Below, piece by piece: positions 48,836 to 63,135 of a DNA stretch of 64,000 nt; the first letter of the stretch is position 1, and each line of letters starts with the position of its first letter. The notes under the pieces were generated by a model, which worked only from the letters and a program-made list of their open reading frames with translations, had not been told where the DNA came from and made no database searches. Made by a program: the position numbers and the translations under genes. Source of the DNA: a virus; the IMG/VR virus record IMGVR_UViG_3300036795_000250, positions 62,001-126,000 of that record. One strand, 5' to 3'.

Positions 48836-49108
48836 TCAGATGTGATCAGCCGCTCGGGGTACTGCGGCGGGGAGGTCAGCCAACAAGCCCCGCTCCGTTA
48901 CCAACCGCCCCCACGATTGCAAGCTGATGGGGCGGTACGGGCGCCCGTCACAGGTGACGTTGACGCCGCTGTCGATGAGATACGGGACCATACGGCCGAT
49001 CTGATCGACGACATCGCTGGCTCGGTCCCAGGTGCGCAGCGCGTTCAGCGCCGCGCGCACGAGAGTGTCAACGTTGATCGATTGTTCTGGTACAGCGTCG
49101 GTGTTCAT
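48836..49108 (-). CDS. Small hypothetical protein
   Basis: 90 aa overlapping the FtsK-like gene by ATGA. Helical; RPYRPISLQSWGRLVTERG near the end. Unknown; could assist the translocase. Confidence 0.5.
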   Translation of the reverse strand: MNTDAVPEQSINVDTLVRAALNALRTWDRASDVVDQIGRMVPYLIDSGVNVTCDGRPYRPISLQSWGRLVTERGLLADLPAAVPRAADHI

Positions 49109-50493
49109 GCGGCACTCCTGTTTGGTGTTGTGGCGGGCCCGTCGATCAGTTGGCCGTTGTGCTCCACGAACAGCTCGATCCCCGTCCCCCTAGCCTCCAA
49201 GGCGTAGGGCTCCGGATCGAGGACTCGGACCGTCGTGGTCCAGGGCAGCGGGACGTCTTTCACCTCCCTGCTCTCGCCCCGATCAAGGTAGGAGATCACC
49301 TCCGCATTGCCGACGCCGGACACCGTGTAGGTGATGTGGGAGTACACCGGCACGGACGAGTTAGCGGCCACCACGAGCTCCGGCACTGGCTCCGTCGGCC
49401 ACACGGGCTCAGGTGCTGCGCGGAGGTCGGCCACGGGCATGACGGTACTGATCAGTTCCCGTGCGTCCGCCTTGCTGACGTAGGCGCCCTGGAACCGCGT
49501 CGGTGAGGCAGCACCGTTAGCCAGGTACAGACCATCGCCGGACCCGAACAGATGTTCCGCTCCGCCCTGATCGAGCGCCACCCGGGAATCCGACTGAGAC
49601 CGCACCCGGAACGCAACCGAGCTCGGCAGACTCGACTTCAGCGCGGTCGGGATCAGGTCCGCAGTCGGTTTCTGCGTGGCCAGCACCAAGATGATGCCCG
49701 CCGCACGGCCCTTCGTCGCCAACTTGACCAGTAGCGGAGCGATCTCCTTTTTGTGGCTGGCCAGCAGATCGGCCAGTTCGTCCACCACGATCACCGTATA
49801 AGGCAGCTGGTTCAGCCCGAGAGCGTTGTACTCGGCGATGTCGTCAACGCCGTGTTCCGCAAAGGATCTGCTGTATTCAGCCATTGTCGCTCTTACCGCT
49901 CGTAGCTCATCGACCGCATCAATGGACTCCGTGATGATCGGAGACATCAGATGCGGCACGTGCGCGAACGGAGTGAATGCCGTCATCTTGGGATCAATGA
50001 GCAGCAGTCGCAACGCTGTCGCGTCATTGCGGGCGAGCAGGTCAAGCAACAGGCCGGTCAGGAAGATGCTCTTGCCGCTACCGGTGATCCCGGCAACGAG
50101 CAGGTGGACGTCCTCGGCCAGGTTCGCGGTCAGCGTCTCACCGGCAATGCTCCGACCGAGCGTGTAGGTGAGAGCAGGCGCGTCCGTTGACATCGGGACG
50201 TCGTCACGGGCGAGGTAGGCCCGCACGACGCGTGGCACATCGACGGTCAACAAGGCTTCGCCGTTGGTTGGCATCCGCATATCGATGTTGTCGTGCCCCA
50301 ACAGAAAGGCGATATCTTTGCGCATTGCCAGCACATCGCTGACCTTGGTTCCCATGCTTACCGAGATGCCGTAGCGGGTCAGTTGGGGAGCCACCGTGCA
50401 TGAGGCAACGCGGGCGTCGACATTCCGCGTTTCGAACAACCTCATGATTTTGCGTGCATTGTCGTCAGTGTCGATAGTCGATGATGTCGTCAT
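49105..50493 (-). CDS. FtsK/SpoIIIE-like DNA translocase ATPase
   Basis: 462 aa soluble motor. The core has GITGSGKS (Walker A), IVVDELADLL (Walker B), LATQKPTADLIPTALKSS and FRVRSQSDSRVALDQGGAE, all chromosomal FtsK-type motifs. There is no membrane domain, and the usual C-terminal gamma (KOPS-reading) domain is not evident. It may move element DNA during segregation, dimer resolution or transfer. First gene left of the hairpin-punctuated operon. Confidence 0.85.
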   Translation of the reverse strand: MTTSSTIDTDDNARKIMRLFETRNVDARVASCTVAPQLTRYGISVSMGTKVSDVLAMRKDIAFLLGHDNIDMRMPTNGEALLTVDVPRVVRAYLARDDVPMSTDAPALTYTLGRSIAGETLTANLAEDVHLLVAGITGSGKSIFLTGLLLDLLARNDATALRLLLIDPKMTAFTPFAHVPHLMSPIITESIDAVDELRAVRATMAEYSRSFAEHGVDDIAEYNALGLNQLPYTVIVVDELADLLASHKKEIAPLLVKLATKGRAAGIILVLATQKPTADLIPTALKSSLPSSVAFRVRSQSDSRVALDQGGAEHLFGSGDGLYLANGAASPTRFQGAYVSKADARELISTVMPVADLRAAPEPVWPTEPVPELVVAANSSVPVYSHITYTVSGVGNAEVISYLDRGESREVKDVPLPWTTTVRVLDPEPYALEARGTGIELFVEHNGQLIDGPATTPNRSAA

Positions 50494-50656
50494 GGCGCAT
50501 GCCTCCTTTCGACAGCTTGTCCTTTAATCCTACGCTGACTTAACGATCCTGAATTCACCACGCTGACCAAACATGCGAAGCGGCTAATCTCGATGATGGT
50601 CGGCGCTATCTTCTGCAAGCGACACGAAAGCGCTGGTCAGAGGATGGTCACCCTCC
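50494..50656. other. Spacer before the FtsK-like gene
   Basis: No gene. Contains complementary outer segments ctgacca near 50572 and tggtcag near 50633, similar to ends of the downstream hairpin elements, so a degenerate copy may lie here. Confidence 0.35.
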
Positions 50657-50986
50657 TTATTTCGCTTGGGTGCCTTCGCTCGTTGGTCCGACAACCAACC
50701 GGATCGCAGCGTCGGGGTTGTCCATGTGCCGACGAAAAGCGCTCATCGAACTGAGGTACCGGAAAATTTGGTCAGCGCGGTGACGGTCCTCGACACGGAC
50801 GGAGACCAGCCTGGTCGAATCGTCCACCGTGATGCTGTCGTTGACCAAGTCCGCGTAGTTCTGCTTCCAGTCCTCGCGATGGGTGAACCAGATGGGCAGG
50901 TAGCCGCGCCACCAGTTGACGGAGCGCGGGAAGTTCGGTGCGGTGATCGCAGACTGGTCAATCGTGACGGTGTATGTGGAAGGCAT
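50657..50986 (-). CDS. Hypothetical protein
   Basis: 109 aa. Beta start (YTVTIDQSAITA) and a WWRGYLPIWFTHREDW stretch. Unknown. Its stop lies in a 24-bp sequence repeated at 53153. Confidence 0.55.
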   Translation of the reverse strand: MPSTYTVTIDQSAITAPNFPRSVNWWRGYLPIWFTHREDWKQNYADLVNDSITVDDSTRLVSVRVEDRHRADQIFRYLSSMSAFRRHMDNPDAAIRLVVGPTSEGTQAK

Positions 50987-51013: not shown

Positions 51014-51065
51014 CTGGCAGCCAGAGCAACGCGCGGGCTAAGCCGCGCGCCACTCAAGCTGTCAG
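51014..51065 (-). repeat. Intergenic hairpin element, class A
   Basis: Element 1. Inner stem gcgcgg/ccgcgc pairs around gctaag; outer arms ctggc/gtcag. The gene's stop is 9 nt outside the element here. Confidence 0.75.
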
Positions 51066-51073
51066 GGGACGAA

Positions 51074-51640
51074 TCAGCTGCCCAAGAGTTTCTCGATCTC
51101 GGACAACCTGGCCCGCAATTGCTGTTGCTCGGCAACCAGTGCGTCCCGGTCAACGGCCGTGTCGACAATCGTCAGGTCGCCATGGTCTCGGGCGCGGGCG
51201 ATGTCGGCGTGGTCCGCAGGCACGTCCCGGACCTCCAGGACAGTGCCCTCTTGGGCTTCCAGACGCGGGTTTTTGACACTGCCGCCGCTATCGGCGAACC
51301 CGCCGGACACGATGATGACGCCATCGCCAAGGCGCACGGGTTCATCACGGCCGCGCCGACGGGCGATCATGCGACCGAACAGGTACAGCTCGCCGCTGTA
51401 CGGGGCGTACCCCTCGGGGTCGGAGAGCCGGACTGTGACGGTCCGACTTGCGGTGCCGTCGGTGCCGTAGACCTCGCGGGCCAGCTCGCGGACGCGTTCC
51501 TCGTCGCGGAGATCGAAAACCCACGTCTTGGCGTTGGCGTCCCAGCGCCCACCGATGGCCCGTGCCTTGCTGGGCATGGTCGGTTCGTACGGCGCGTGGA
51601 GGGTGACGGTCGTTTCGTCGGTAGTGACGTTGATGCCCAT
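51074..51640 (-). CDS. Protein with HARP-like N-terminal domain
   Basis: 188 aa. APYEPTMPSKARAIGGRW and KTWVFDL resemble the HARP-type module of SMARCAL1-like helicases, which here stands alone. The end is a coiled coil (AEQQQLRARLSEIEKLL). May bind DNA structures. Confidence 0.5.
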   Translation of the reverse strand: MGINVTTDETTVTLHAPYEPTMPSKARAIGGRWDANAKTWVFDLRDEERVRELAREVYGTDGTASRTVTVRLSDPEGYAPYSGELYLFGRMIARRRGRDEPVRLGDGVIIVSGGFADSGGSVKNPRLEAQEGTVLEVRDVPADHADIARARDHGDLTIVDTAVDRDALVAEQQQLRARLSEIEKLLGS

Positions 51641-51666
51641 CGCGTATTCCTTCCTGTGCTATTGGA

Positions 51667-51719
51667 TTGGCAGCCAACGCAGCAACCGGCGCATGTCCGG
51701 TCACCACGCAAGTGGTCAG
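51667..51719 (-). repeat. Intergenic hairpin element, class A
   Basis: Element 2. Inner stem accgg/ccggt; contains the TGA stop (51716-51718) of the next gene in the first arm on the transcript. Confidence 0.75.
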
Positions 51720-52426
51720 TCCTCGGTGCCTTCGGACTTCTGCGCGTGCCACTCGTCGAGCAGCTTCTGCGCGTCGGCCTCGCTCATCGGTGCATCCGGG
51801 ATCGGCACCACGACGACGTTGTTGGGCAGCACCGCATCCTCGATGTAGTGCTGCCCGCCGGTACCGTCCAGGCGGAATGCGAGCCGTCCGCTCCCGCTCT
51901 GCTCAACCCAGCCGTTCACCTCTGCGGCGATACGCTCGGCAGGGCTCTGCTGAGACTCGGGGTTGTTCGGATCCGCCCACCGTTGCGCAGCCTTGACCGC
52001 GTCCCGTGCGGCCTGCCCCGCCTCGATGCGTGTCAGGTAGTCGGCCGCAACGTCCAGAGCCTCCACGATCACGCTGGACAGCGGCGAGGCCATGAACACC
52101 ACGTTGGGCTCGGGGAACTGCGCGGGAGAGATCTCCCAGGCATCCGCGTTGGTGTCCGCGCTCACCTGGCCGTGCTCGATACCCCAGAGACTCCCCTCAC
52201 CGATCGTGACCCCGTAGAGAGAGACCTCAACTTCCATACCCACTCCCATGAAGTCATCGCGGCGCCACCGGGCGAGGTAGTCCTCTCGGTCCGCCGGAGT
52301 ATCAAACTCTTGATCCTTCGGGTCGTAGTCCTCATCTCGGTACATGCTGGCCTCGATGACGACCATGGGCGTGACGTCGTCATCGGGAGACTGCCACAAC
52401 GTTTTCTGTTCGATCGGTTTGGTCAT
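51716..52426 (-). CDS. Hypothetical acidic protein
   Basis: 236 aa from the ATG at 52426 (AAGGAATC upstream). Acidic N-half (DEDYDPKDQEFDTPADRED), C-terminal coil. Largest protein of the operon; not recognised. Confidence 0.55.
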   Translation of the reverse strand: MTKPIEQKTLWQSPDDDVTPMVVIEASMYRDEDYDPKDQEFDTPADREDYLARWRRDDFMGVGMEVEVSLYGVTIGEGSLWGIEHGQVSADTNADAWEISPAQFPEPNVVFMASPLSSVIVEALDVAADYLTRIEAGQAARDAVKAAQRWADPNNPESQQSPAERIAAEVNGWVEQSGSGRLAFRLDGTGGQHYIEDAVLPNNVVVVPIPDAPMSEADAQKLLDEWHAQKSEGTED

Positions 52427-52452
52427 GATTCCTTCTTTCCCTTGTTGTTGAC

Positions 52453-52506
52453 CTGATTGCCAGCACAGCGCGCGGGCCGAAACCCGTGCACCATGCAAGC
52501 GGTCAG
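52453..52506 (-). repeat. Intergenic hairpin element, class A
   Basis: Element 3. Outer arms ctgattgc/gcggtcag, inner gcgcggg/cccgtgc with wobble. The next gene's TGA (52503-52505) is inside. Confidence 0.75.
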
Positions 52507-52784
52507 CTCTGCCGAGCCAGGAACGCGGCGATCACGGCGTCGTAGTCGCGCGCCATACCCTCTTTCGTAGGCCAGTTGCCCAACGACGCACCAGTTTCGA
52601 TGTCGCCGATGTAGAAGCCTCCCAGGTCCGACGGGGACGGCCCTGCGTAGAACCGGCTCACGTTGTTCCCGTCGGCGTTGTACAGCAACCATTCACCCGT
52701 GCCCACATCGCGCCACGCCCACCCGGCGGGGAGGTTCGCGTCATCCCACGTGGTGCCGTCGGTGACGTCGAATACTGCGCTCAT
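52503..52784 (-). CDS. Small hypothetical protein
   Basis: 93 aa. Two WRDVGTGEWLLYNADG-like beta turns. Unknown; ATG with GAAGGAGAT upstream. Confidence 0.55.
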   Translation of the reverse strand: MSAVFDVTDGTTWDDANLPAGWAWRDVGTGEWLLYNADGNNVSRFYAGPSPSDLGGFYIGDIETGASLGNWPTKEGMARDYDAVIAAFLARQS

Positions 52785-52808
52785 ATCTCCTTCTCTCTTT
52801 TCGCTGGC

Positions 52809-52861
52809 CTGGCAACACCAGCACGGAGCGCGGGCAAGCCGTGCGCCATGCAAGCGGTCAG
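52809..52861 (-). repeat. Intergenic hairpin element, class A
   Basis: Element 4. Inner gcgcgggc/gccgtgcgc, right half identical to several others (gccatgcaagcggtcag). Contains the TGA at 52858-52860. Confidence 0.75.
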
Positions 52862-53112
52862 GTGTGCGCAACTTCGCTGTAGGGCTTCCAGCCACGGACG
52901 GATTCACCGGCATACCAGCGTGTCTCTTTGGCGTAGAGCTGGGCAGCAAAGCCAGACGTTCGGGCGGCTTCGGCGTCGCGCTTGCGGTCGAAGTTGCCTT
53001 CGAGCTCATAACCGTCGGCCGCACAGATCGACCAGCAGCCACCAGTTTTGACCACTAGCCATGTTGAGGGTGGGTTCGCGGCGTGTTCTTCGGGATTGCT
53101 GAATAGCGACAT
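52858..53112 (-). CDS. Small hypothetical protein
   Basis: 84 aa. STWLVVKTGGCWSICAADG, then RDAEAARTSGFAA. Unknown. Confidence 0.55.
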   Translation of the reverse strand: MSLFSNPEEHAANPPSTWLVVKTGGCWSICAADGYELEGNFDRKRDAEAARTSGFAAQLYAKETRWYAGESVRGWKPYSEVAHT

Positions 53113-53152
53113 TCTTCGACACCTTTCTCGGTATGACTTTCTTTGGTAGAAG

Positions 53153-53176
53153 GGATGGTCACCCTCCTTATTTCGC
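53153..53176 (-). repeat. 24-bp direct repeat, second copy
   Basis: Identical to 50642-50665 (begins ggatggtcaccctccttatt). In the first copy it covers a gene's 3' end; here the gene stop is 12 nt further on, so it looks like a relic of recombination between gene ends. Confidence 0.6.
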
Positions 53177-53187
53177 CCGGCACGGTG

Positions 53188-53529
53188 TCAGGCGACCTCT
53201 GCCAGATCCCGCAACACGACGTCCCGCACCTCTTGCGGGAGATCCGTCCAGCGGCAGGCGCGGTGTGCGTTGCGGAACCGGTAGGCGGCCACCTCGTACG
53301 CGGGCATATCGCCGTACATGCCGAATCCCTGCGCGTGTGTCGGGTGCTTCGACATGCCCCGGTAGCCGAGTCGCATATCCGCGTAGGTCGTGCCACACAC
53401 GGGCGTCGCGTAGAAGATCGTGTACCGGTCCGCCGTCTTCGGGCCGTCGTCGTAGATTGCCAGCACTTCGCGCGGGCAATCACCATCGCGCCAACCTGTC
53501 GACTGCCGACGGGGCGAATATTTGTTCAT
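53188..53529 (-). CDS. Hypothetical protein
   Basis: 113 aa. Features AYRFRNAHRACRWTDLPQEV and RDVVLRDLAEVA. Unknown. This junction has the 24-bp repeat instead of a hairpin element. Confidence 0.55.
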   Translation of the reverse strand: MNKYSPRRQSTGWRDGDCPREVLAIYDDGPKTADRYTIFYATPVCGTTYADMRLGYRGMSKHPTHAQGFGMYGDMPAYEVAAYRFRNAHRACRWTDLPQEVRDVVLRDLAEVA

Positions 53530-53550
53530 GATCTACAACCCTTCTGCTGT

Positions 53551-53601
53551 CTGGCAACCAGCACAGGGCACGGTCGAGCCGTGCGCCATGCAAGCTGTCA
53601 G
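53551..53601 (-). repeat. Intergenic hairpin element, class A
   Basis: Element 5. Inner gcacgg/ccgtgc around tcgag; TGA of the next gene (53598-53600) inside. Confidence 0.75.
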
Positions 53602-53765
53602 CCCTCAATCTCTCCGACGACTTCGCGGATCTTCTGTGCGACCGCTAGGGGCAGGCTCAACCAGCGCGAGTCACCCTGTGGGCCCGCGAACTTGACGCGA
53701 ACCATGTCCGTGTCGCCGACACCCTTCAGAGCCAAGTCAATCTGGCGTTGCTCGTAATTGCTCAT
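53598..53765 (-). CDS. Small hypothetical protein
   Basis: 55 aa, ATG at 53765, easily missed because of its size. Begins SNYEQRQIDLALKGVG and ends REVVGEIEG. It exactly fits between two operon members with its TGA in a hairpin arm. Confidence 0.6.
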   Translation of the reverse strand: MSNYEQRQIDLALKGVGDTDMVRVKFAGPQGDSRWLSLPLAVAQKIREVVGEIEG

Positions 53766-53767
53766 AG

Positions 53768-53977
53768 TCAGACCTCCTTTTCGTTACGTTCGTGCAGTTC
53801 GACGAAATCCTGTGGTACCTCGGTCACCTCGGCGCCGTCGGATGATGTGTGGTAGTTCAGTTCGTAGATACCGACAGGGTCAGGTTGACCCGGGTCGTTA
53901 TCGGTCGTCGGCTCATCGTCATAGACCGCCACCCGCAACAGATCGAGTGCCGGATGTTTCCACACACGTAGCGGCAC
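53768..53977 (-). CDS. Small hypothetical protein
   Basis: 69 aa, GTG start. Acidic middle (YDDEPTTDNDPGQPDP). Unknown. Follows its upstream gene within 3 nt, with no hairpin. Confidence 0.5.
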   Translation of the reverse strand: MPLRVWKHPALDLLRVAVYDDEPTTDNDPGQPDPVGIYELNYHTSSDGAEVTEVPQDFVELHERNEKEV

Positions 53978-53980
53978 AGA

Positions 53981-54487
53981 TCAGCCCCCCGTCATGACGT
54001 CGCGGGCGAGCGACATCAGCGTGTCGATCTCATCTTCGCGACCCTCGAACAACTGCCAGTCGTCGTTGCCGTCGGCTCGAACGTGCACGGCATAGGTATG
54101 CGCCGACGCGTCCCAGTCGATGGTGAGCAGTTCCCCGGATGCGGGCGCTGGGTTGTCGCTTGCCGGGCTGTCGGGGGCTGTCTGGGCACCGCGCGCCTTG
54201 AGGTGCTGGTACCGCGTGCCTGCCACGAATGCATCCATCCACAGCGCGGCAAGAGTGGTCTTGTTGTCGTCGGCTTCAGCTACGGTCATCCGACCGTGCA
54301 ACGCGACCAGGCCGCGCATGGCGCGCTGAGTAGCCGCGTACACCAGCGATTGGGTATTGACGATCCGCCCGGCAATGTCTGGGATTGACTGGCCGCTGTC
54401 CGCCTGCGCATCGGTGTCGATGAGTGCCTGCGAGATCAGCCAAAAGTCTGGGTGGTCGGGCCGATCGGGGAAATTCTTATCCGTCAT
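53981..54487 (-). CDS. Hypothetical protein
   Basis: 168 aa from the ATG at 54487. Helical N-part (FWLISQALIDTDAQ) and a C-terminal beta segment (HTYAVHVRADGNDDWQLF). Unknown. Confidence 0.55.
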   Translation of the reverse strand: MTDKNFPDRPDHPDFWLISQALIDTDAQADSGQSIPDIAGRIVNTQSLVYAATQRAMRGLVALHGRMTVAEADDNKTTLAALWMDAFVAGTRYQHLKARGAQTAPDSPASDNPAPASGELLTIDWDASAHTYAVHVRADGNDDWQLFEGREDEIDTLMSLARDVMTGG

Positions 54488-54512
54488 GGTTGCGTGTCCT
54501 TCCTCTGTGGTT

Positions 54513-54566
54513 CTGGCCACCAGCGCAGCAACCGGGCTCTTGTCCGGTCACCACGCAAGCGGTCAG
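54513..54566 (-). repeat. Intergenic hairpin element, class A
   Basis: Element 6. Same inner variant as element 2 (accggg/ccggt). TGA at 54563-54565 inside. Confidence 0.75.
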
Positions 54567-55048
54567 TCTCCGATCAGCAACGTACCGGCGTGAAGTTCCT
54601 TGGTGGTCACGTGTGGTGAGCTTTCACCCGGGTGAGGCATGTGCATGATCAGCCGCCCGGCATGTTCGGCGTCGGTGTCCGATGGGATGCGCCGCACGGT
54701 GAACGCGAACGCGCCGCGCGGGTCACCGACACTGATCATTACCGTAACGCTGTCTTCGCGCTCGTCCAGATGGATTGCAGCGGAGTTGACCCACGACAGC
54801 GGGATCGGTTCCGGGTCGTGCGGGCCGTAGTCCACGCTGTCATCAGTGACCGGACCGTCAAGAAGGTTTTCGAGGCATAGCGCACCTTCGGGCCCACCGG
54901 AGAACACTTCGCCGTCTTGGGTGAGCGGTTCACTGCACGCGCGGCATCGGTGGGTTTCCTCGCGGTCCGTGTCGAACTCGACCGTGACGTACTCGACATC
55001 GTCCGTGACCTCTTGCGATTCACTGTCGATGCTGATCAGGGGAAGCAT
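54563..55048 (-). CDS. Hypothetical protein with CxxC site
   Basis: 161 aa. CRACSEPLTQDG is a likely zinc half-site, with beta sheet later (DSVTVMISVGDPRGAFAF). Unknown. Confidence 0.55.
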   Translation of the reverse strand: MLPLISIDSESQEVTDDVEYVTVEFDTDREETHRCRACSEPLTQDGEVFSGGPEGALCLENLLDGPVTDDSVDYGPHDPEPIPLSWVNSAAIHLDEREDSVTVMISVGDPRGAFAFTVRRIPSDTDAEHAGRLIMHMPHPGESSPHVTTKELHAGTLLIGD

Positions 55049-55069
55049 GGTTATGTCCTCTCGTTGGTT

Positions 55070-55127
55070 CTGGCAACCAACGGAACGAACGAGCCGGTCA
55101 GGGATCGCACGTTCCGCAAGTGGTCAG
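55070..55127 (-). repeat. Intergenic hairpin element, class A, GGAACG variant
   Basis: Element 7. Inner stem ggaacg/cgttcc replaces the usual gtgcacgg stem; outer ends unchanged. The stop used (55128) is just outside. Confidence 0.75.
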
Positions 55128-55694
55128 TCATTCGCCGCGCAGCTCCGCGTCATAGTGCATGGCGCCGTTCGCGTCGACCTTGTCGTAATCCAGGCCCAAC
55201 GCATCGCAGAGGTGGCGCGCGTTGGCCAGGAAGTCACCCAACACCAATTCGGGCGACTCGTCAGAGACTAAGGTCATGAGCGCAAACGAGCGAAGACCTC
55301 TCAGCGCCCACTGTGCACGCAGGTAGTTGTCTGCGGAATAGTCTTTCCAGTCGAGTTGATCATCACTCGTGCACTCGTCAAGGTCAACAAGTCTGACGTC
55401 GTCGGGGATCGACTCCATGAACGGCGTGGCTGGATAGAGCACTTCCGCAGCATCGGAAGCCGGGGGGCTGCTGGTCAGCTTGCGCCAGTTGATCGGCCCG
55501 TTGTGGGCGGACAGCAACGTATCGAGTTGGGCGAAATCGGCCGCCAGTTGGCTTTGGTAGTCGTCCGCCCGCGAACGGTGTTCCGACGCTGCCATGTATC
55601 GCAAGGCGCCATCCGACTCATCCGCCGCTTTATGCTCATTGTCAATTCGAGCGAGTAGCTCACGAATGCCCATCAACAATTCACGTTCGGCCAT
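55128..55694 (-). CDS. Hypothetical helical protein
   Basis: 188 aa from the ATG at 55694. Helical throughout, HNGPINWRKL in the middle. Unknown. Confidence 0.55.
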   Translation of the reverse strand: MAERELLMGIRELLARIDNEHKAADESDGALRYMAASEHRSRADDYQSQLAADFAQLDTLLSAHNGPINWRKLTSSPPASDAAEVLYPATPFMESIPDDVRLVDLDECTSDDQLDWKDYSADNYLRAQWALRGLRSFALMTLVSDESPELVLGDFLANARHLCDALGLDYDKVDANGAMHYDAELRGE

Positions 55695-55716
55695 TGCTCT
55701 CACCTTTCTCTGTGGT

Positions 55717-55773
55717 CTGGCAACCAACACAGTGCACGGACCACTAGGGCCCGTGCGCCACGCAAGCGGTCAG
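55717..55773 (-). repeat. Intergenic hairpin element, class A
   Basis: Element 8. Inner gtgcacgg/ccgtgcgc with one wobble. TGA (55770-55772) inside. Confidence 0.78.
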
Positions 55774-56024
55774 CCATTGACGTACGATTCTGCGATGGTG
55801 AGGAATTCCTTGTAGCTCTTGGGCGGCTTCGTCATTCCGAACTGAGATGGATCGACAACCGGCCTGTTTGACCAGCTCGATTTGTCATCCCGCTTGGCAC
55901 CGAACGAGAGTCCGCTAGTGCCGCGCGCGTTGACCAGCGTGTAGCGGGTTCCAGACTCGGACACCCATTCGACCGCAAACGCAGCGAGGTTGCTGACGTT
56001 GACGAGACCCACTTTTTCAGTCAT
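55770..56024 (-). CDS. Small hypothetical protein
   Basis: 84 aa. WVSESGTRYTLVNARG beta hairpin and KSYKEFLTIAESYVNG helix. Unknown. Confidence 0.55.
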   Translation of the reverse strand: MTEKVGLVNVSNLAAFAVEWVSESGTRYTLVNARGTSGLSFGAKRDDKSSWSNRPVVDPSQFGMTKPPKSYKEFLTIAESYVNG

Positions 56025-56041
56025 TGCTCTACCTCCGTTGT

Positions 56042-56095
56042 CTGGCAACCAACACAGTGCGCGGACCGAAGCCCGTGCGCCATGCAAGTGGTCAG
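56042..56095 (-). repeat. Intergenic hairpin element, class A
   Basis: Element 9. Inner gtgcgcgg/cccgtgcgc. TGA (56092-56094) inside. Confidence 0.78.
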
Positions 56096-56340
56096 TTGGC
56101 CAGTCCGCCCGGGTATTCGTCCGACTGATACACATCGCGTCCCTGGTCAAAGCCGTTCGTGTAGTGACCCTCACCGGACTCGTACGCGTCCTGCTCGGAC
56201 TGAGTACCCGTACCGAGGTCATCACTGGCCGCCCAGTCGTAACCAGCGTGGAAGCCGACCCGAGCCTGTTCCCGTGCCTCACCCTGCAAACCGATCTGAT
56301 CGAGCCACGCGGACACGTCGAACGCTGGATTTTCCGTCAT
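56092..56340 (-). CDS. Small acidic hypothetical protein
   Basis: 82 aa, repeated Gly-Tyr/acid turns (GYDWAASDD, GEGHYTNGFDQGRD). Unknown. Confidence 0.55.
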   Translation of the reverse strand: MTENPAFDVSAWLDQIGLQGEAREQARVGFHAGYDWAASDDLGTGTQSEQDAYESGEGHYTNGFDQGRDVYQSDEYPGGLAN

Positions 56341-56364
56341 GATCCAAAACCTCTCTGTCGTTGG

Positions 56365-56424
56365 TCTGAGAACACAACAGAGCGGCTATCTCCCCCTCGT
56401 GGATAGCCGCTCGATGAGTCATCA
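56365..56424 (-). repeat. Intergenic hairpin element, class C
   Basis: Element 10. Inner gagcggctatc/gatagccgctc perfect 11 bp; outer end gatgagtcatcag. TGA (56422-56424) inside. Confidence 0.78.
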
Positions 56425-56808
56425 GAGCTTGACGCCGAACACGTTGACGCGCTCGACGTAGTAAGGGCCGACGTAGTGTGTCCACCGACGGCTGACACTC
56501 GCCACGATGGCCGCCCACAGTCGCGAGTTGAAGTCCGGGCCGTCCCCCTCGACGTGCGCGCTTCTCTCGGTCAGCACGCCCGTGTAGGGGTCCTCGTACG
56601 GCTTGAGCTCGCTCAGCCAGGTACGGCGGTCGTAGGGACCAGGATCCGCGCTCGGAGAGCCGAATCCCTCACCCTCCAACCAGTCCGCGCACTCCCGTGC
56701 GTTGTCGAACGAGTGGGAGTCGGTGCGTTCGTCGGTGCGCTCCCTCTCGTCTGCTCCCTCTTCCCACGCTGCGTAGGTTGCCGTGTGGACTTCAATGGTG
56801 ATTTTCAT
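56422..56808 (-). CDS. Hypothetical protein
   Basis: 128 aa from the ATG at 56808. Acid/Arg-rich (EGADERERTDERTDSHSF), then HYVGPYYVERVNVF. Unknown. Confidence 0.55.
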   Translation of the reverse strand: MKITIEVHTATYAAWEEGADERERTDERTDSHSFDNARECADWLEGEGFGSPSADPGPYDRRTWLSELKPYEDPYTGVLTERSAHVEGDGPDFNSRLWAAIVASVSRRWTHYVGPYYVERVNVFGVKL

Positions 56809-56831
56809 GGTTGGTGGGCTCCCTAGGTGGG

Positions 56832-56888
56832 CTGATTGAACAACAGAACGGCCACCGTGTGATCGATGGCCGTTCGATGAACCGTCAG
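56832..56888 (-). repeat. Intergenic hairpin element, class C
   Basis: Element 11. Inner gaacggccac/gatggccgttc; here the stop used (56904) lies 16 nt outside. Confidence 0.7.
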
Positions 56889-56903
56889 ACCTTGTGCGCG
56901 CAC

Positions 56904-57281
56904 TCAGGCTTGCGCTACGTCCGCGACGTGTTCGAGCAGCGGAACAACGCCGTTGCTCTTGGGTGTCCAGGAAACCGCGTGCCCTCGGTCTCCGCCGAGA
57001 GGGGAACCGCAGCCGTCGCATGATGACGACGAAAACCAAGGTTCGCAGGATTCGACCTCGGTACCGGTTGCGCGCGCCTCCCTGCCGCAGTGCTCGCAGT
57101 CCAGCGAACCGAGCGTGATATCCGTGTCACCCCACAACGCGGCCATTTTGTCACTCTGCGCGCTGGTGATGTCTTCCCCGGAACTGTCCAGTACCTCGCC
57201 GTTGGCGAGCAGCGCGACGCAATCCGTACAGATAGTCAGTTCGGTTGTGTCGAATTCCTTGCCGTTCACGCCAATTGTCAT
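56904..57281 (-). CDS. Zinc-binding hypothetical protein
   Basis: 125 aa. Three CxxC pairs: CTDC, CEHC and CDGC, so one or two zinc sites. Unknown. Confidence 0.6.
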   Translation of the reverse strand: MTIGVNGKEFDTTELTICTDCVALLANGEVLDSSGEDITSAQSDKMAALWGDTDITLGSLDCEHCGREARATGTEVESCEPWFSSSSCDGCGSPLGGDRGHAVSWTPKSNGVVPLLEHVADVAQA

Positions 57282-57300
57282 TGCTCTCAACTCCTGTTGT

Positions 57301-57358
57301 CTGGCAACCAACGGAGCGAACGAGCCCGTAGGGGATCGCACGCTCCGCAAGCGGTCAG
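57301..57358 (-). repeat. Intergenic hairpin element, class A, GGAACG-type variant
   Basis: Element 12. Inner ggagcg/cgctcc: relative to element 7 the A-T pair has become G-C, a compensatory change. TGA (57355-57357) inside. Confidence 0.78.
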
Positions 57359-57573
57359 CTATCCAACCGATCCATCATGTGACCGAACATCACGTGTAGC
57401 CGCGTGTTGACCTTGACGCGTGCCGCGTTGACGATGGCAGGGTCAACACCCAACGTGATGAGCGCAGCCTCTCCCGCGTCGATAGCGTCCTTGCCCGGGT
57501 AGTTCATGATGATGTTGTAGGCCAGTTCGACCCTGTGATCCTCCGTTGTGGTGGTCGTGATCTTTCCGTTCAT
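57355..57573 (-). CDS. Small hypothetical protein
   Basis: 72 aa from the ATG at 57573. NYPGKDAIDAGEAALITLGV helix-turn. Unknown. Confidence 0.5.
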   Translation of the reverse strand: MNGKITTTTTEDHRVELAYNIIMNYPGKDAIDAGEAALITLGVDPAIVNAARVKVNTRLHVMFGHMMDRLDS

Positions 57574-57592
57574 TGCGCAGCCCTCTCGTTGT

Positions 57593-57649
57593 CTGCCAAC
57601 CAACACCGCGCACGGACCGCTAGAGCCCGTGCGCCATGCAAGCTGTCAG
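57593..57649 (-). repeat. Intergenic hairpin element, class A
   Basis: Element 13. Inner gcgcacgg/cccgtgcgc. TGA (57646-57648) inside. Confidence 0.75.
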
Positions 57650-57933
57650 CGTTTGTCGTCGGCGACCACGTCGCCGCACATTTCGTGGTCGTGTTCCTGG
57701 TCGCCTGGCATGGCGCACGTGCGCTGATCTGGTTGCACGTCGTCCGGGTTGAATGCGCGGAGTAGGTCAGCGCCGGTACGTGTCACGGTCCATTCGCGGT
57801 GCCCTGCCGATCGGGGGCGAACGAGTCGCGCGTCCCACACAGCGCGCCACTGGTCATCATTCGCACGGGCATCCCGAGTGTTGAACCGCGCTACGTGTTT
57901 CAGCACGTGCTCGATAGTGAGTCTTTCGCCCAT
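57646..57933 (-). CDS. Small hypothetical protein, possibly winged helix
   Basis: 95 aa. TIEHVLKHVARFNTRD, then HREWTVTRTGADLLRAF, reminiscent of a winged helix. C-terminal Cys/His (CAMPGDQEHDHEMC) may bind metal. Confidence 0.5.
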   Translation of the reverse strand: MGERLTIEHVLKHVARFNTRDARANDDQWRAVWDARLVRPRSAGHREWTVTRTGADLLRAFNPDDVQPDQRTCAMPGDQEHDHEMCGDVVADDKR

Positions 57934-57952
57934 TGTGTTGCCCTTCCGTTGG

Positions 57953-58012
57953 CCTGAGTAACTAGCAGTGTGCACGGGCTCTTGTCCGTGCACACTGCCG
58001 TAGCTGATCAGG
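57953..58012 (-). repeat. Intergenic hairpin element, class B
   Basis: Element 14. Perfect 13-bp inner stem cagtgtgcacggg/cccgtgcacactg-like; outer end tagctgatcag. TGA (58008-58010) inside. Confidence 0.8.
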
Positions 58013-58202
58013 GTTGCGGTGAGTCGTGCCCAGAGTTGAGCTGATCGCAGAGCGCTTCCGCCTGTCCGGCGGTCTCGCGTTCTTGCGACGGGTAGGCGCT
58101 GGTATCGCCGTTGCGGTAGGCAATCCACGCGTCGTAGTCGACCACGCGGAAGCTGTCCGTCTCATTGGTGTTCGAGTGCGGACGTAGGACGACATAGCCC
58201 AT
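58008..58202 (-). CDS. Small hypothetical protein
   Basis: 64 aa. GYVVLRPHSNTNETDSFRVV beta hairpin then a short helix. Unknown. Confidence 0.5.
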   Translation of the reverse strand: MGYVVLRPHSNTNETDSFRVVDYDAWIAYRNGDTSAYPSQERETAGQAEALCDQLNSGHDSPQP

Positions 58203-58225
58203 TATTTTGACCTTTCATTACTAGG

Positions 58226-58285
58226 CTGATCACCTAGCACGGTGCGCGGGCTCTACAGTCCGTGCGCCATGCCGTAGCTGATCAG
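58226..58285 (-). repeat. Intergenic hairpin element, class B
   Basis: Element 15. Outer arms ctgatca/tgatcag are perfect, inner cggtgcgcgg/ccgtgcgcc with wobbles. TGA (58282-58284) inside. Confidence 0.8.
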
Positions 58286-58617
58286 CGGAGCACTGGCATG
58301 CTTGGCTGGAGTAGCTTCCGCAGCTCCGCTGCCTGGTCTCCACCTTGACGCATGATCGACTCGACCAGCATCACAGTCAGCTCAACCGCGCTTGGGAGGT
58401 GCATTTCGGCGGCTTGGTCTGCGAGTTGCTGACATTCGGAGTCCGGATTCAGGTCCCCACCACAGTCACAGCCGTCAGTTGACGGCCCGTGTTCATAGTT
58501 CGAGCACAGTTCGTCCCCGTCAATCGTTACGGGATCCATTACCCACGTACGTGCACCCGACTCGTCTTCGGCCAAATTCAGATAGACCGCTACCGATTCT
58601 TCTATCTTGTGTTTCAT
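58282..58617 (-). CDS. Hypothetical protein with Cys cluster
   Basis: 111 aa from the ATG at 58617. GCDCGGDLNPDSEC cluster near the middle, helical C-terminus. Unknown. Confidence 0.55.
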   Translation of the reverse strand: MKHKIEESVAVYLNLAEDESGARTWVMDPVTIDGDELCSNYEHGPSTDGCDCGGDLNPDSECQQLADQAAEMHLPSAVELTVMLVESIMRQGGDQAAELRKLLQPSMPVLR

Positions 58618-58638
58618 TGTCTCTCTGTCCTTCCTAGG

Positions 58639-58696
58639 CTGATCACCTAGCACGGTGCGCGGACCGTAACCCGTGCGCCATGCCGTAGCCGATCAG
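58639..58696 (-). repeat. Intergenic hairpin element, class B
   Basis: Element 16. Near-identical to element 15 but loop and one outer base differ. TGA (58693-58695) inside. Confidence 0.78.
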
Positions 58697-58899
58697 ATCA
58701 TGCCGTCTGAGTACCAAGGCTCATCTTCGTACTCACTCGTTCCGTTGCAGGCAGCACAATCAGCCGTGCATACCGCGTCCCACGTGGAGCGTGGCGAGCG
58801 TTGCACCATGGTGTGACCGTTGACCGCCCGGTACGGCTTGCGCCACTCCTCGTTGTCCTGCTCCGCGATCAGGTCTCGTGTGTTCACTTGCTGTGTCAT
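58693..58899 (-). CDS. Small Cys-containing hypothetical protein
   Basis: 68 aa from the ATG at 58899. CTADCAACNG may bind zinc. Acidic end. Unknown. Confidence 0.5.
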   Translation of the reverse strand: MTQQVNTRDLIAEQDNEEWRKPYRAVNGHTMVQRSPRSTWDAVCTADCAACNGTSEYEDEPWYSDGMI

Positions 58900-58924
58900 C
58901 GTTCGGCCCTCCTTACTCCGTTGT

Positions 58925-58983
58925 CTGGCAACCAACGGAACGAACGAGCCTGTAGAGGGATCGCGCGTTCCGCAAGTGGTCAG
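58925..58983 (-). repeat. Intergenic hairpin element, class A, GGAACG variant
   Basis: Element 17. Inner ggaacg/cgttcc. The gene stop used (58990) is 7 nt outside. Confidence 0.75.
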
Positions 58984-58989
58984 AGCCGA

Positions 58990-59262
58990 TCAGGCACGCT
59001 CACGCGTGAACGGGTGAATCGTGGTGAGCCGTTCCCCGTTCATCGTGGTGTGACCCGGTAGTCCGTTCTTACGGACGCGAAACCAGCCATTCCAGGGACT
59101 GTGATAGGTCTCGGCGTAGGTGGGGTCACTCAGGTGCACCGTGTCCGCGAACACGACCGTTACGCGGTCAAGGTCATAATCCCAGTAGCTCCCCCCGTCG
59201 GTGATCCGCTCACCGTTCGCCGTCAAGAACCGTGCATCCGTGTTCGGGTCGATGTTTTCCAT
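58990..59262 (-). CDS. Small hypothetical protein
   Basis: 90 aa. Beta-rich (DLDRVTVVFADTVHL, WNGWFRVRKNG). Unknown. Confidence 0.55.
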   Translation of the reverse strand: MENIDPNTDARFLTANGERITDGGSYWDYDLDRVTVVFADTVHLSDPTYAETYHSPWNGWFRVRKNGLPGHTTMNGERLTTIHPFTRERA

Positions 59263-59282
59263 CGTGTGGCCTTTCTAGGTAG

Positions 59283-59342
59283 TCCGATAAAGCAAGTGAA
59301 TGGCTACCGGGAATGCCGCTAGCCATTCAATGAGTCATCGGG
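59283..59342 (-). repeat. Intergenic hairpin element, class C
   Basis: Element 18. Inner gaatggctac/tagccattc, outer ccgat/atcgg. Stop used (59352) lies 10 nt outside. Confidence 0.75.
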
Positions 59343-59351
59343 CCGATCAGA

Positions 59352-59549
59352 TCATTTCTTTGGTTCTATGGTGAGATCTCCGATAGCCAACGTGGCTGAC
59401 CTCATCGAACGGTGGACAGAGACGGTCAGCCAGTTGTGCCACTCGTCTTGTTTTTTGACCGAGTAGAATTGGCCAAGCATGCCGTTTCGGCGGATGCGAT
59501 AGTCGCCGATTTGCCATTCCCAGCCGCGAACTATTGTTATGGTTTTCAC
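59352..59549 (-). CDS. Small hypothetical protein
   Basis: 65 aa. WEWQIGDYRIRRNGMLGQFY and WLTVSVHRS strands. Shares the strand-RxxRNG pattern with the gene at 58990 (FRVRKNG), a possible relation. Confidence 0.5.
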   Translation of the reverse strand: MKTITIVRGWEWQIGDYRIRRNGMLGQFYSVKKQDEWHNWLTVSVHRSMRSATLAIGDLTIEPKK

Positions 59550-59558
59550 TAGTTGTGC

Positions 59559-59592
59559 TCCGTAGGGGGTCGCGCGTTCCGCAAGCGGTCAG
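59559..59592 (-). repeat. Half hairpin element (class A, GGAACG variant)
   Basis: Element 19. Only the right half (ggtcgcgcgttccgcaagcg and onward to gtcag) is present; the left arm is missing, replaced by the start of the neighbouring gene. A deletion or recombination product. Confidence 0.65.
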
Positions 59593-59594
59593 AA

Positions 59595-59936
59595 TCAGTC
59601 GACTGGCACGGTCTCACTGGCAACGTGTTCCGTGCACATGTACACGTCGCCCTGCAAGCCGCCCAGACGGACCGTGACGGCTCCCGGGTTCGGGCAGTCG
59701 CCAGACCACCCGCACGGGTCGGCAGGGCTCCCACCAGCCGCACGGGAGCCGAGCACGCTGCGCAGTTTCTGCCGCGCGATCACGCGCAGCGTGTGCGTGC
59801 CGAACCGCTTGTCCAACCGCACGAGATAGGCAATCTCTGCCGCGATCTCGTCATCCGTGAACAGGCTTGGTCTCGTCTGTGGGGTTGGCTCGTTCATCCG
59901 GGCTTTGCCGGGTACGTACTTCTCTCCGCCACGCAT
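59595..59936 (-). CDS. Hypothetical protein
   Basis: 113 aa from the ATG at 59936. Helix TDDEIAAEIAYLVRLDKRF, then CGWSGDCPNPG and YMCTEH that may bind zinc. Unknown. Confidence 0.55.
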   Translation of the reverse strand: MRGGEKYVPGKARMNEPTPQTRPSLFTDDEIAAEIAYLVRLDKRFGTHTLRVIARQKLRSVLGSRAAGGSPADPCGWSGDCPNPGAVTVRLGGLQGDVYMCTEHVASETVPVD

Positions 59937-59954
59937 GGTCTTGTCCTTTCTAGG

Positions 59955-60015
59955 CTGATCACCTAGCACAGCGCGCGGGCCCTAGTGGTCCGTGCACCAT
60001 GCCGTAGCTGATCAG
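59955..60015 (-). repeat. Intergenic hairpin element, class B
   Basis: Element 20. Outer ctgatca/tgatcag; inner gcgcgcggg/tccgtgcacc with wobbles. Stop used is 4 nt outside. Confidence 0.75.
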
Positions 60016-60018
60016 AGG

Positions 60019-60204
60019 TCACAGCACCTGTTCAAGGTCGGCAGTCACGTAGCTGCGTTCCGCACCGGACTTGTCCAGTTTGACGACCGTCATCTCTGGT
60101 ACCTGGTGTTGCCGCACGACTACCCCGTACCGGTCACCTCGCATCCATTGATCTGTCCAGACCGGAATCTCGACACGTGTTCCTGGTGCGTATGTGCCTG
60201 TCAT
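60019..60204 (-). CDS. Small hypothetical protein, SH3-like
   Basis: 61 aa from the ATG at 60204. GTYAPGTRVEIPV, RYGVVVRQHQVPEMTVVKLD and SYVTADLEQVL have the KOW/SH3-like small barrel pattern. Unknown. Confidence 0.5.
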   Translation of the reverse strand: MTGTYAPGTRVEIPVWTDQWMRGDRYGVVVRQHQVPEMTVVKLDKSGAERSYVTADLEQVL

Positions 60205-60221
60205 TTTCCCTACCTCTCTGG

Positions 60222-60277
60222 TCTGAGTAGCTAGCACAGTGCACGGGCAAGCCGTGCACCATGCCGTAGCCGATCAG
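60222..60277 (-). repeat. Intergenic hairpin element, class B
   Basis: Element 21. Inner cagtgcacgg/ccgtgcacc; TGA (60274-60276) inside. Confidence 0.78.
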
Positions 60278-60528
60278 TACTCGAAGTCGGCTGAGCCGAT
60301 CAGCATCGCGGCGAATGCGATGCCTTCTAGGAAATCTGCGCTCACCGCTTGCGCTGCCCACTCAGTCCCTGCCAGACACTCAACGAGGTTCTGTCGGTCG
60401 GTAGTGATCATCTCTTGCAGTCGCTGAGCTAGTCCGTCCCGCGCTTCCCGGATGCCCTCGGAGCGGCTGGATTCGGTCAGCGCGGCGATTTTGTCTACGT
60501 AGTCGCCGATCTGCTCTTCTGTGGTCAC
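60274..60528 (-). CDS. Small helical hypothetical protein
   Basis: 84 aa, helical and acidic (TTEEQIGDYVDKIAALTESS). Unknown. Confidence 0.5.
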   Translation of the reverse strand: MTTEEQIGDYVDKIAALTESSRSEGIREARDGLAQRLQEMITTDRQNLVECLAGTEWAAQAVSADFLEGIAFAAMLIGSADFEY

Positions 60529-60551
60529 GGATTGACCCTCTCGTCATGGTG

Positions 60552-60612
60552 GGCCGATAAGCCAACAGAACGGCCCTCACGTGCTCTGTGTGGGCCGTTC
60601 GATGAGTCATCG
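60552..60612 (-). repeat. Intergenic hairpin element, class C
   Basis: Element 22. Outer ccgat/atcgg; inner gaacggccc/gggccgttc perfect 9 bp. Stop used is 12 nt outside. Confidence 0.75.
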
Positions 60613-60623
60613 GGGTACATCCC

Positions 60624-60998
60624 CTACCGGGGGTCGACGATGCGCGTACGGATGCCGTCGGGCCCTGCCGCGATTTCGGTCACGAGACCGCGTGGGTTGA
60701 TGGTGAGCGCGTACTCATGTGCCGCTTCGATGTCACTGACACGCGGCGCTGGCTGATCGGTGTACGTGCTCAGGTAGGGCATGCCGAGAGCATCCCGGTA
60801 GATCCCCGCTTCCCCCCACGTGACGGGGAAGCTGAACGGCTCACCAGTCTCGGTCAGGAGTTGCGCCATCCAGTTGTCGAGCACGCGGACAGACATCGTC
60901 TTGCCCGCGACGCGCATGTGCACGCATACCTCGGAGCCTGGAAGCTCGATCGCGACCACGTCGCCAACGGCGACGGTTGTGGTCAAATACTTGCGCAT
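60624..60998 (-). CDS. Hypothetical protein
   Basis: 124 aa from the ATG at 60998. Beta-rich (TTTVAVGDVVAIELPG, VCVHMRVAGKTMSVRVLD). Unknown. Confidence 0.55.
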   Translation of the reverse strand: MRKYLTTTVAVGDVVAIELPGSEVCVHMRVAGKTMSVRVLDNWMAQLLTETGEPFSFPVTWGEAGIYRDALGMPYLSTYTDQPAPRVSDIEAAHEYALTINPRGLVTEIAAGPDGIRTRIVDPR

Positions 60999-61021
60999 AA
61001 CAATCAATCCTCTGTGTAGGC

Positions 61022-61080
61022 GCCGATAAGCCAACGGAGCGGCTACCGGCAAGGTCGGTAGCCGTTCGATGAGTCATCGG
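61022..61080 (-). repeat. Intergenic hairpin element, class C
   Basis: Element 23. Inner gagcggctaccg/cggtagccgttc, nearly perfect; outer ccgat/atcgg. Confidence 0.78.
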
Positions 61081-61093
61081 TGTGTAGAGCCGA

Positions 61094-61303
61094 TCAGGCG
61101 ACTTCGGTCCGGAGCAACCGCGCCAATCGGTAGTAGGTGGCATTCGGCAGTGCGCTGAAAAGCGCGTCGCGAATGGCGAGCGCGTCCGCTTTCACCGTGT
61201 CCTGAAACACCGTGCGGTCAGCGCTGCCAACGTCGCCCGGGAGCGGTACAGGCAGGCACGTGACGCTGAGCGTGCCCCAACTGTGGATAGTCAGGTCAGT
61301 CAT
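61094..61303 (-). CDS. Small hypothetical protein
   Basis: 69 aa from the ATG at 61303. LTIHSWGTLSVTCLPVPLPG strand-rich start, helical end. Unknown. Confidence 0.5.
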   Translation of the reverse strand: MTDLTIHSWGTLSVTCLPVPLPGDVGSADRTVFQDTVKADALAIRDALFSALPNATYYRLARLLRTEVA

Positions 61304-61322
61304 GCTCTTGTCCTCTCTGTGG

Positions 61323-61381
61323 TCTGAGTAGCTAGCACGGTGCGCGGACCGAAGCCCGTACACCGTGCCGTAGCTGATCAG
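61323..61381 (-). repeat. Intergenic hairpin element, class B
   Basis: Element 24, the most upstream copy. Inner cacggtgcgcgg/cccgtacaccgtg; TGA (61378-61380) inside. Confidence 0.78.
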
Positions 61382-61983: not shown

Positions 61984-63135
61984 TAGTCACGGTCAGCGGA
62001 TTGACTACACGGATGCGTTCGACCGTGCGCACTTTATGTTGGGGCCTCCGGACTCTCACGGCTGGTATCCGCCAGCGCTATGTCCCAAGGGCCTTGTGTC
62101 CCGAGGGCTCGAACCCCGGTGACGCCGATCTGTTCTCAGTCTCTCTGTCGTCACTACATCTGCGACGTTAGCCAGTTCCGTAAACGACATGAGTACTCAT
62201 GTAGCGATGTTGCTCTTAGCTAGGCGTATCGCTACAGGTCAAGCACTCTATTTGCGTTAGCCACTAGTTTCCTGCCTTCGGCGTGTCTCTCAGAAACACA
62301 GGGTGTGTCGTGATCTAGCTCCCTGGTGAGTAGAGGCCCGATGTCCGTATCAGTGCCTGGTCATAGTGACGTCTCTACGGGGTGATCACTACAGGTGGTC
62401 CCATGGGTAGGGGAGGTGACGTAGGTAGGTGTACTCAGAGGCACTGCCTCGCAGGCCAGTACTCACACCACGTGCCCCGTGCGTGGTCATGGGTATGTGC
62501 CTGCCGTTGGGCGTGGTGTGGGCGGTAGAGGCGCATACAGAGGTCACTGTGCATGATGTCCGATACGGTCTCGTCTCACTAGCGATGATCATGTGTGGGA
62601 ACGCGGAGCGTTCGGTACTCAGTAGAGCAGCGCATGCCTGGTTAGTGCAGGTGGGCTCTGTGGTCGGTAGCCGCTGCTCTCTCGGGTATCAGTAGGTATG
62701 TGGGTCATCGGATAGTGAGTTGAGGAGTGGATTGAACAGTCTCTGTCTGAGACGCACGTCGCGTGCCGCTGTCCTGCCCGTTGCACGCTTGCCGACCGAC
62801 TGCCGTCGGTCGGCAAGCGCAGCTACTGCGCACCGCAGAGCGGCACACACTGCTCTGTCCACAGAGGTCACTAAGGACAAGCCCAGTTACCTAGTCACCC
62901 TTATGTCACATCTCAGCGCTAGCAACACAGCGTCGCTGACTGCCTACAGTCGGCAGAGGGTAGCTAGGGGTAGATGGATCATGCTCCGCTTTACGACTGC
63001 AAATTCACTAGTGCAAATTGATCATCGAAACCTGAATGACGTCTCGTGCACAGCCCAAAAAGATCATGATACCTTAATCGATACAGAAGGATCACCCACC
63101 AACCCGACCAGAACACCTCCCCACCCTCTACCCTG
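61984..63135. promoter_or_regulatory. 1.15-kb gene-free region upstream of the hairpin operon
   Basis: No supported gene. Short frames in it lack ribosome sites and recognisable domains. It should contain the promoter(s) of the leftward operon and of the rightward gene at 63136. It also holds an isolated T-arm-like motif at 62102-62118 and a strong hairpin at 62787. Confidence 0.45.
62787..62818. terminator. Perfect 14-bp hairpin with 4-nt loop
   Basis: gcttgccgaccgac and its exact complement around tgcc, the tightest hairpin in the window. No T-run on either side. Likely a terminator or RNA stabiliser inside the gene-free region. Confidence 0.6.

Follow-up and report, generated by a model that had tools for sequence, protein, structure and literature searches.

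Early mRNA of phage T7 carries a handful of RNase III processing sites, which are irregular hairpins of about 60 nt placed between cistrons and whose cleavage is proven. For actinobacteriophages, the role of the start-associated and intergenic repeats of their small-gene regions has been open since 2011. Cluster K mycobacteriophages possess extended start-associated sequences (ESAS) with 17-bp arms, which accompany the 13-bp start-associated sequence (SAS) in roughly half of the genes that have one (PMC3203893, PMC11373665) and have since been reinterpreted as promoters of SigA type containing an inverted repeat (PMC11373665). Cluster O mycobacteriophages and cluster EG Microbacterium phages have intergenic inverted repeats of 17-18 bp (PMC4351075, PMC7302621). 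Here we describe a family of hairpin elements at the junctions of a small-gene operon in a 64,000-nt stretch of viral DNA (the window, bases 62001-126000 of the 129,193-base virus record IMGVR_UViG_3300036795_000250). We suggest, as a tentative reading to which we give somewhat less than an even chance, that these elements are RNA hairpins punctuating a long polycistronic phage mRNA at cistron borders, where an activity of RNase III type would process it.

The operon is directed leftward, from high to low window coordinates, with the genes and the elements both on the minus strand, and gene calling gives 28 genes, where an initial annotation of this DNA had counted about 28. Sequence reading and folding together give 23 complete elements and one 5' half, in agreement with the 24 noted in that annotation, and the three classes of ends that it distinguished are represented by 12 (A), 6 (B) and 5 (C) complete copies, the half element being of class A. 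Among the 27 internal junctions of the operon 23 have a complete element, one has the 5' half and three (53966-53980, 53766-53767 and 53113-53187) have none. The features, in window coordinates and in the order of transcription, are as follows.

61938-50657, minus strand: operon of 28 small, mostly unknown and mutually unrelated genes, from open reading frame (ORF) calling
61324-61381, minus strand: class B hairpin
61023-61080, minus strand: class C hairpin, with a B-like remnant CTGATCGGCT ahead of it at 61097-61088
60554-60613, minus strand: class C hairpin
60223-60277, minus strand: class B hairpin
59955-60015, minus strand: class B hairpin, its 21-nt core being the exact reverse complement of the core of 55717-55773
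59560-59592, minus strand: class A half element, 5' arm and loop only
59284-59341, minus strand: class C hairpin, with a B-like remnant CTGATCGGC ahead of it at 59350-59342
58925-58983, minus strand: class A hairpin, with a B-like remnant CTGATCGGCT ahead of it at 58993-58984
58639-58696, minus strand: class B hairpin
58226-58285, minus strand: class B hairpin
57954-58011, minus strand: class B hairpin, 14-nt core in common with class A 54513-54566
57593-57649, minus strand: class A hairpin
57301-57358, minus strand: class A hairpin
56832-56889, minus strand: class C hairpin
56366-56425, minus strand: class C hairpin
56042-56095, minus strand: class A hairpin, 19-nt core in common with class B 61324-61381
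55717-55773, minus strand: class A hairpin, core inverted relative to 59955-60015
55070-55127, minus strand: class A hairpin
54513-54566, minus strand: class A hairpin
53551-53601, minus strand: class A hairpin
52809-52861, minus strand: class A hairpin
52453-52506, minus strand: class A hairpin
51667-51719, minus strand: class A hairpin
51014-51065, minus strand: class A hairpin, the final element, ahead of the gene 50657-50986

Each complete element is 51-61 nt long and folds as an unbranched imperfect hairpin with arms of 23-29 nt and a loop of 4-8 nt in all three classes, so that the stem makes about two helical turns. Class A starts with CTGAC-CTTGC and ends with TGG-TGCCAG, with a U.U mismatch at pair 10 in all copies and an A.C mismatch at pair 4 in 10/12; class B starts with CTGATCRGCTACGGCA, and class C with CCGATGACTCAT or a close variant. 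All copies lie on the coding strand in one orientation relative to transcription, and the hairpin fills the gap from the stop codon to the next initiation region almost exactly. The initial annotation had placed the elements over the stop codon, which holds for 15/23, where TGA of the upstream gene makes up element positions 2-4, and fails for the remainder, where the stop lies 2-16 nt upstream of the element. The next start codon follows 17-27 nt past the hairpin in 22/23, and at about 15 nt in one, if the better ribosome-binding site is used. The loop of the half element contains ACGGAG, which may now serve as the ribosome-binding site of the next gene, starting with GTG at 59549.

The ESAS are the nearest described kind, as the initial annotation proposed, with a different sequence. 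Both are imperfect inverted repeats with a short variable spacer, intergenic, in one orientation and just upstream of starts (PMC3203893, PMC11373665), and both are restricted to a block of small non-structural genes, the ESAS classes differing between phages. Unlike ESAS, the elements described here have arms of 23-29 nt, no SAS and no promoter, are found at 23/27 junctions and have the stop codon in the stem. We do not file them as ESAS, because the SAS and promoter features fail, with position and inverted repeat being the features that agree. The T7 sites are similar in being irregular hairpins of about 60 nt between the cistrons of a phage polycistronic mRNA, and the double-stranded stem of about two turns in intercistronic position, as in an RNase III site, is present here (arms of 23-29 nt, 23/27 junctions); unlike T7, three sequence classes occupy nearly every junction, and cleavage, proven for T7, is putative for our elements. 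The cluster O and EG repeats are also numerous and lie for the most part in short gaps between genes, close to starts, and recombination between repeat copies was inferred in cluster O (PMC4351075, PMC7302621), but they are short near-invariant palindromes suiting a dimeric DNA-binding protein, in contrast to the long hairpins with changing inner letters in our case. Integron cassette arrays with attC (PMC2727003) are similar in that their small genes are unrelated and that after every gene comes an imperfect folded repeat, always in one orientation; unlike them, our operon has no R'/R'' boxes and the phage no integron integrase. No match to Rfam above the gathering score was found in the window.

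The evidence for folding comes from the comparison of junctions and of copies. The mean hairpin z against dinucleotide shuffles is -3.64 at the operon junctions (22/25 below -2) versus -1.03 at the other junctions of the genome. The initial annotation had proposed a covariance-model check, which we ran, and covariation goes beyond chance: double-sided changes occur at 8 pairs of class A, in 20 cells (shuffle mean 7.6), and at 8 pairs of class C, in 10 cells (shuffle mean 3.4), both above 500/500 shuffles, while class B, which varies little, has weaker covariation (16/500 shuffles); in all three classes it is far above that of slid registers. When the three classes were aligned together, RNAalifold returned no structure, because they were misaligned against each other, and the model R1 is therefore one of sequence only; aligning each class by itself, with a stated structure, solved this. 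The model R2, built from class A, recovers 6/6 class B elements with E from 5e-7 to 5e-5, and its search of the 129-kb genome gave no new site at E<0.01.

Pairing is thus kept while letters change, in a stem of near-constant length with fixed mismatches that sits after the stop codon of one gene and before the ribosome-binding site of its unrelated neighbour. From the constant stem of about two turns, the fixed mismatches, the covarying core and the stop-to-start position it would be logical to suggest an RNA hairpin whose reader is a nuclease or a binding protein specific for double strands. The hairpin would fold in the transcript, a double-strand-specific ribonuclease of the host RNase III type would recognise and cut it, and each gene would become its own unit of translation and decay, uncoupled from its neighbour. 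The freed 3' arm might then pair anew with the leader, giving a small 5' hairpin beside the ribosome-binding site. Such a second small hairpin of 3' arm and leader can be formed, for instance, as CGTTGGTT-GCCAG-AACCAACG at 55070, and it is more stable than those formed with shuffled leaders (equally stable in 0/400) and marginally more stable than those with leaders of other genes (equally stable in 13/400).

A number of observations weigh against the proposal of RNA hairpins with RNase III-type processing. No RNase III is recognisable among the phage genes, and the processing enzyme would therefore have to be that of the host. The mRNA strand is favoured as the folding strand (75 G-U cells versus 31 A-C cells, better energy in 18/23), which is support and not proof, because counted by column the preference is only 18 to 10 (p 0.09, not significant). 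Class A keeps its A.C mismatch in 10/12, the elements are related by descent so that the covariation counts are not independent events, and the hairpin of 3' arm and leader fails a permutation among junctions. Insulation without cutting would also explain the same anatomy. Taken together, the hairpins probably separate the messages of the genes, for example by cutting of the mRNA, and RNA processing or the setting of mRNA levels, with cleavage being its presumed step, remains the best reading of the elements. A bolder version, namely a dedicated mRNA-punctuation system, in which nearly every pair of small genes is separated by one of three recognisable hairpin types, a specific nuclease or an RNA-binding protein reads them, and the hairpin with its ribosome-binding site makes a portable module recruiting new small genes, we consider unlikely.

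The alternative that survives best, and which we regard as unlikely, is that the hairpins are translational insulators only, which stop terminating ribosomes from sliding or reinitiating and keep the next ribosome-binding site free without any cut. The nearly exact filling of the stop-to-initiation space by the hairpin fits it, as do the TGA in the stem base (15/23) and the start 17-27 nt away (22/23); the conserved letters of the outer arms, the mismatches fixed within classes and the near-constant stem length are left unexplained by it, and homologous genes elsewhere do without hairpins. Several operon genes match PHROG families of unknown function, and homologues are found in cluster E and K4 mycobacteriophages and in one Streptomyces phage. 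Around these homologues the small genes are mostly packed, with short gaps or none, and the hairpins are therefore not tied to the genes.

Partial terminators or attenuators, which would grade the output of the genes along the operon, perhaps together with an antitermination factor of the phage, would agree with a strong GC-rich hairpin at each junction and with the T-rich tails of junction hairpins in a relative (G004). However, simple terminators were held unlikely by the initial annotation and our scans concur, with at least 5 T among the 9 nt of the tail in 0/19 scored operon hairpins and terminator-like sites no more frequent than by chance, and 24 serial terminators would silence the distal genes unless relieved; we find this explanation quite improbable.

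The elements have a history of their own, which bears on whether they serve as recombination sites through which gene cassettes are exchanged, either in the manner of integrons or by homologous recombination of one element with another. Cores are common to A and B elements in the same orientation (61324/56042, 19 nt; 60223/52809, 14 nt; 57954/54513, 14 nt) and one further pair, 59955/55717, has an exact common core of 21 nt in inverted orientation; the elements are mosaics. All six genomic copies of the nonamer CTGATCGGC lie within this operon. B elements contain two of them, three are remnants located at the stop codon immediately ahead of an A or C element, and the last is in the end of a gene. 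The half element 59560-59592 is cut in the loop, with the next gene beginning just after. Shared and inverted cores, the half element and the B-type remnants are direct evidence, in the sequence, that the elements have recombined with one another, which need not be their function. Exchange through them also has in its favour the unrelated genes lying between near-identical elements, among which we found no paralogues, no gene being similar to another, and the two tyrosine recombinases encoded by the phage. The attC core boxes may be written as RYYYAAC and GTTRRRY. Ordered boxes of this kind are absent in 23/23 elements on either strand, the two recombinases are XerD-like and score at best 45 bits against the integron-integrase cut-off of 265, and recombination between repeats happens in any case, even where they have another role. 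Of the recombination role raised by the initial annotation, mutual recombination of the elements stands, and a function in exchange is unsupported; cassette exchange through the elements is unproven, and as their role we consider it very improbable.

A role as DNA sites at which a phage regulator acts, either operators or promoters, would be comparable to the ESAS, whose imperfect inverted repeats precede small genes of the right arm (PMC3203893) and carry SigA-like promoters (PMC11373665), and to hairpins around a TTGAC box in the relatives G004 and G014. It is very doubtful here, with a -35/-10 pair in no element (TTGAC 0/23, TANNNT 1/23, no pair spaced 15-19), inner arm letters that change with compensation, unlike an operator, and variable spacing between the conserved ends. 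A sigma70-like promoter scan was at chance level, and the 13-bp SAS GGGATAGGAGCCC, with up to 3 mismatches, gave 12 matches versus 18 expected in the window, none of them at junction leaders.

The initial annotation would take relatives with unconserved junction sequences as refuting its proposal, and as far as sequence goes this is the outcome: about 60 records from the phage's family contain no element of this sequence, yet several relatives carry other junction hairpins. In the Saccharomonospora phage PIS 136 a single R2 match (L018:29946-29884) exactly occupies a stop-to-start junction, with the start codon 26 nt further on, and with its ends CTGACC...GGCCAG it is a candidate for the class A design in one copy. 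The single R2 match in G009 is inside a gene and was taken as chance, and the R3 match in G003 covers the middle of the model only. Pattern scans gave no match for class A in GTDB genomes and no match for classes B and C; three class A matches in viral contigs (IMG/VR), single and in unrelated records, were taken as chance.

The inter-gene hairpins of the relatives lie close to the next start codon. G004 (33-58 kb; L137, L138) and G014 (94258-95654; L177) have junction hairpins enclosing the TTGAC box with a -10-like box downstream, that is hairpin and promoter in one, with arms differing between copies; the hairpins with T-rich tails in G004 come in addition, and 29/51 of its junctions have z below -2. 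Many junction hairpins of unlike sequence are present in G002, G008, G009 and G013. In G001 (77-86 kb; L118, L119) there are repeated sigma70-like promoters TTGACTTAGGT and a start-associated GGCTACGGAAGTAGGAGCC (GGCT...AGCC) around the ribosome-binding site before ATG, which resembles the cluster K SAS. A large tRNA-like gene cluster was observed in G003 (6-11.6 kb; L129).

The virus itself is a new, actinobacteriophage-like tailed phage, with genes for a major head protein, portal, terminase, head protease, endolysin, two DNA polymerases and a UvsX-like recombinase. The record is probably a complete genome, since its first 127 bases are identical to the last 127. The closest named match is DnaE of PIS 136 (65% identity), with which only few genes are common, and the capsid protein places the virus in a large family of uncultured phages (57-79% identity). 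The major capsid protein query retrieved relatives from viral contigs; the FtsK-like and DnaE queries found none there. One of the tyrosine recombinases, XerD-like, is encoded at L011:3506-4735 and the second at L013:15207-16499, and a gene of an FtsK/SpoIIIE-like protein (window 49105-50493) adjoins the operon; the pairing of XerD-like and FtsK/SpoIIIE-like proteins points to dimer resolution or to life as a phage-plasmid. An exact 24-bp repeat GGATGGTCACCCTCCTTATTTCGC occurs at 53153-53176, in a hairpin-free operon junction, and at 50642-50665, just past the last gene, and is possibly a fourth junction element. Upstream of the operon about 1.1 kb (61984-63135) is without a clear gene and has a strong near-perfect hairpin at 62786-62819; this region may hold the operon promoter or an origin.

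In this one genome 23 copies, belonging to three classes, show covariation of base pairs. As a counterpart of the mycobacteriophage start-associated repeats they are larger and better supported, and the covariation argues for a folded RNA (or a folded single strand) over a DNA operator. Among phages of a single family the device at the junctions is swapped as a whole, being a promoter with a start-associated sequence, a hairpin around a promoter or a bare hairpin, and the repeats therefore look like interchangeable solutions for expressing many small genes.

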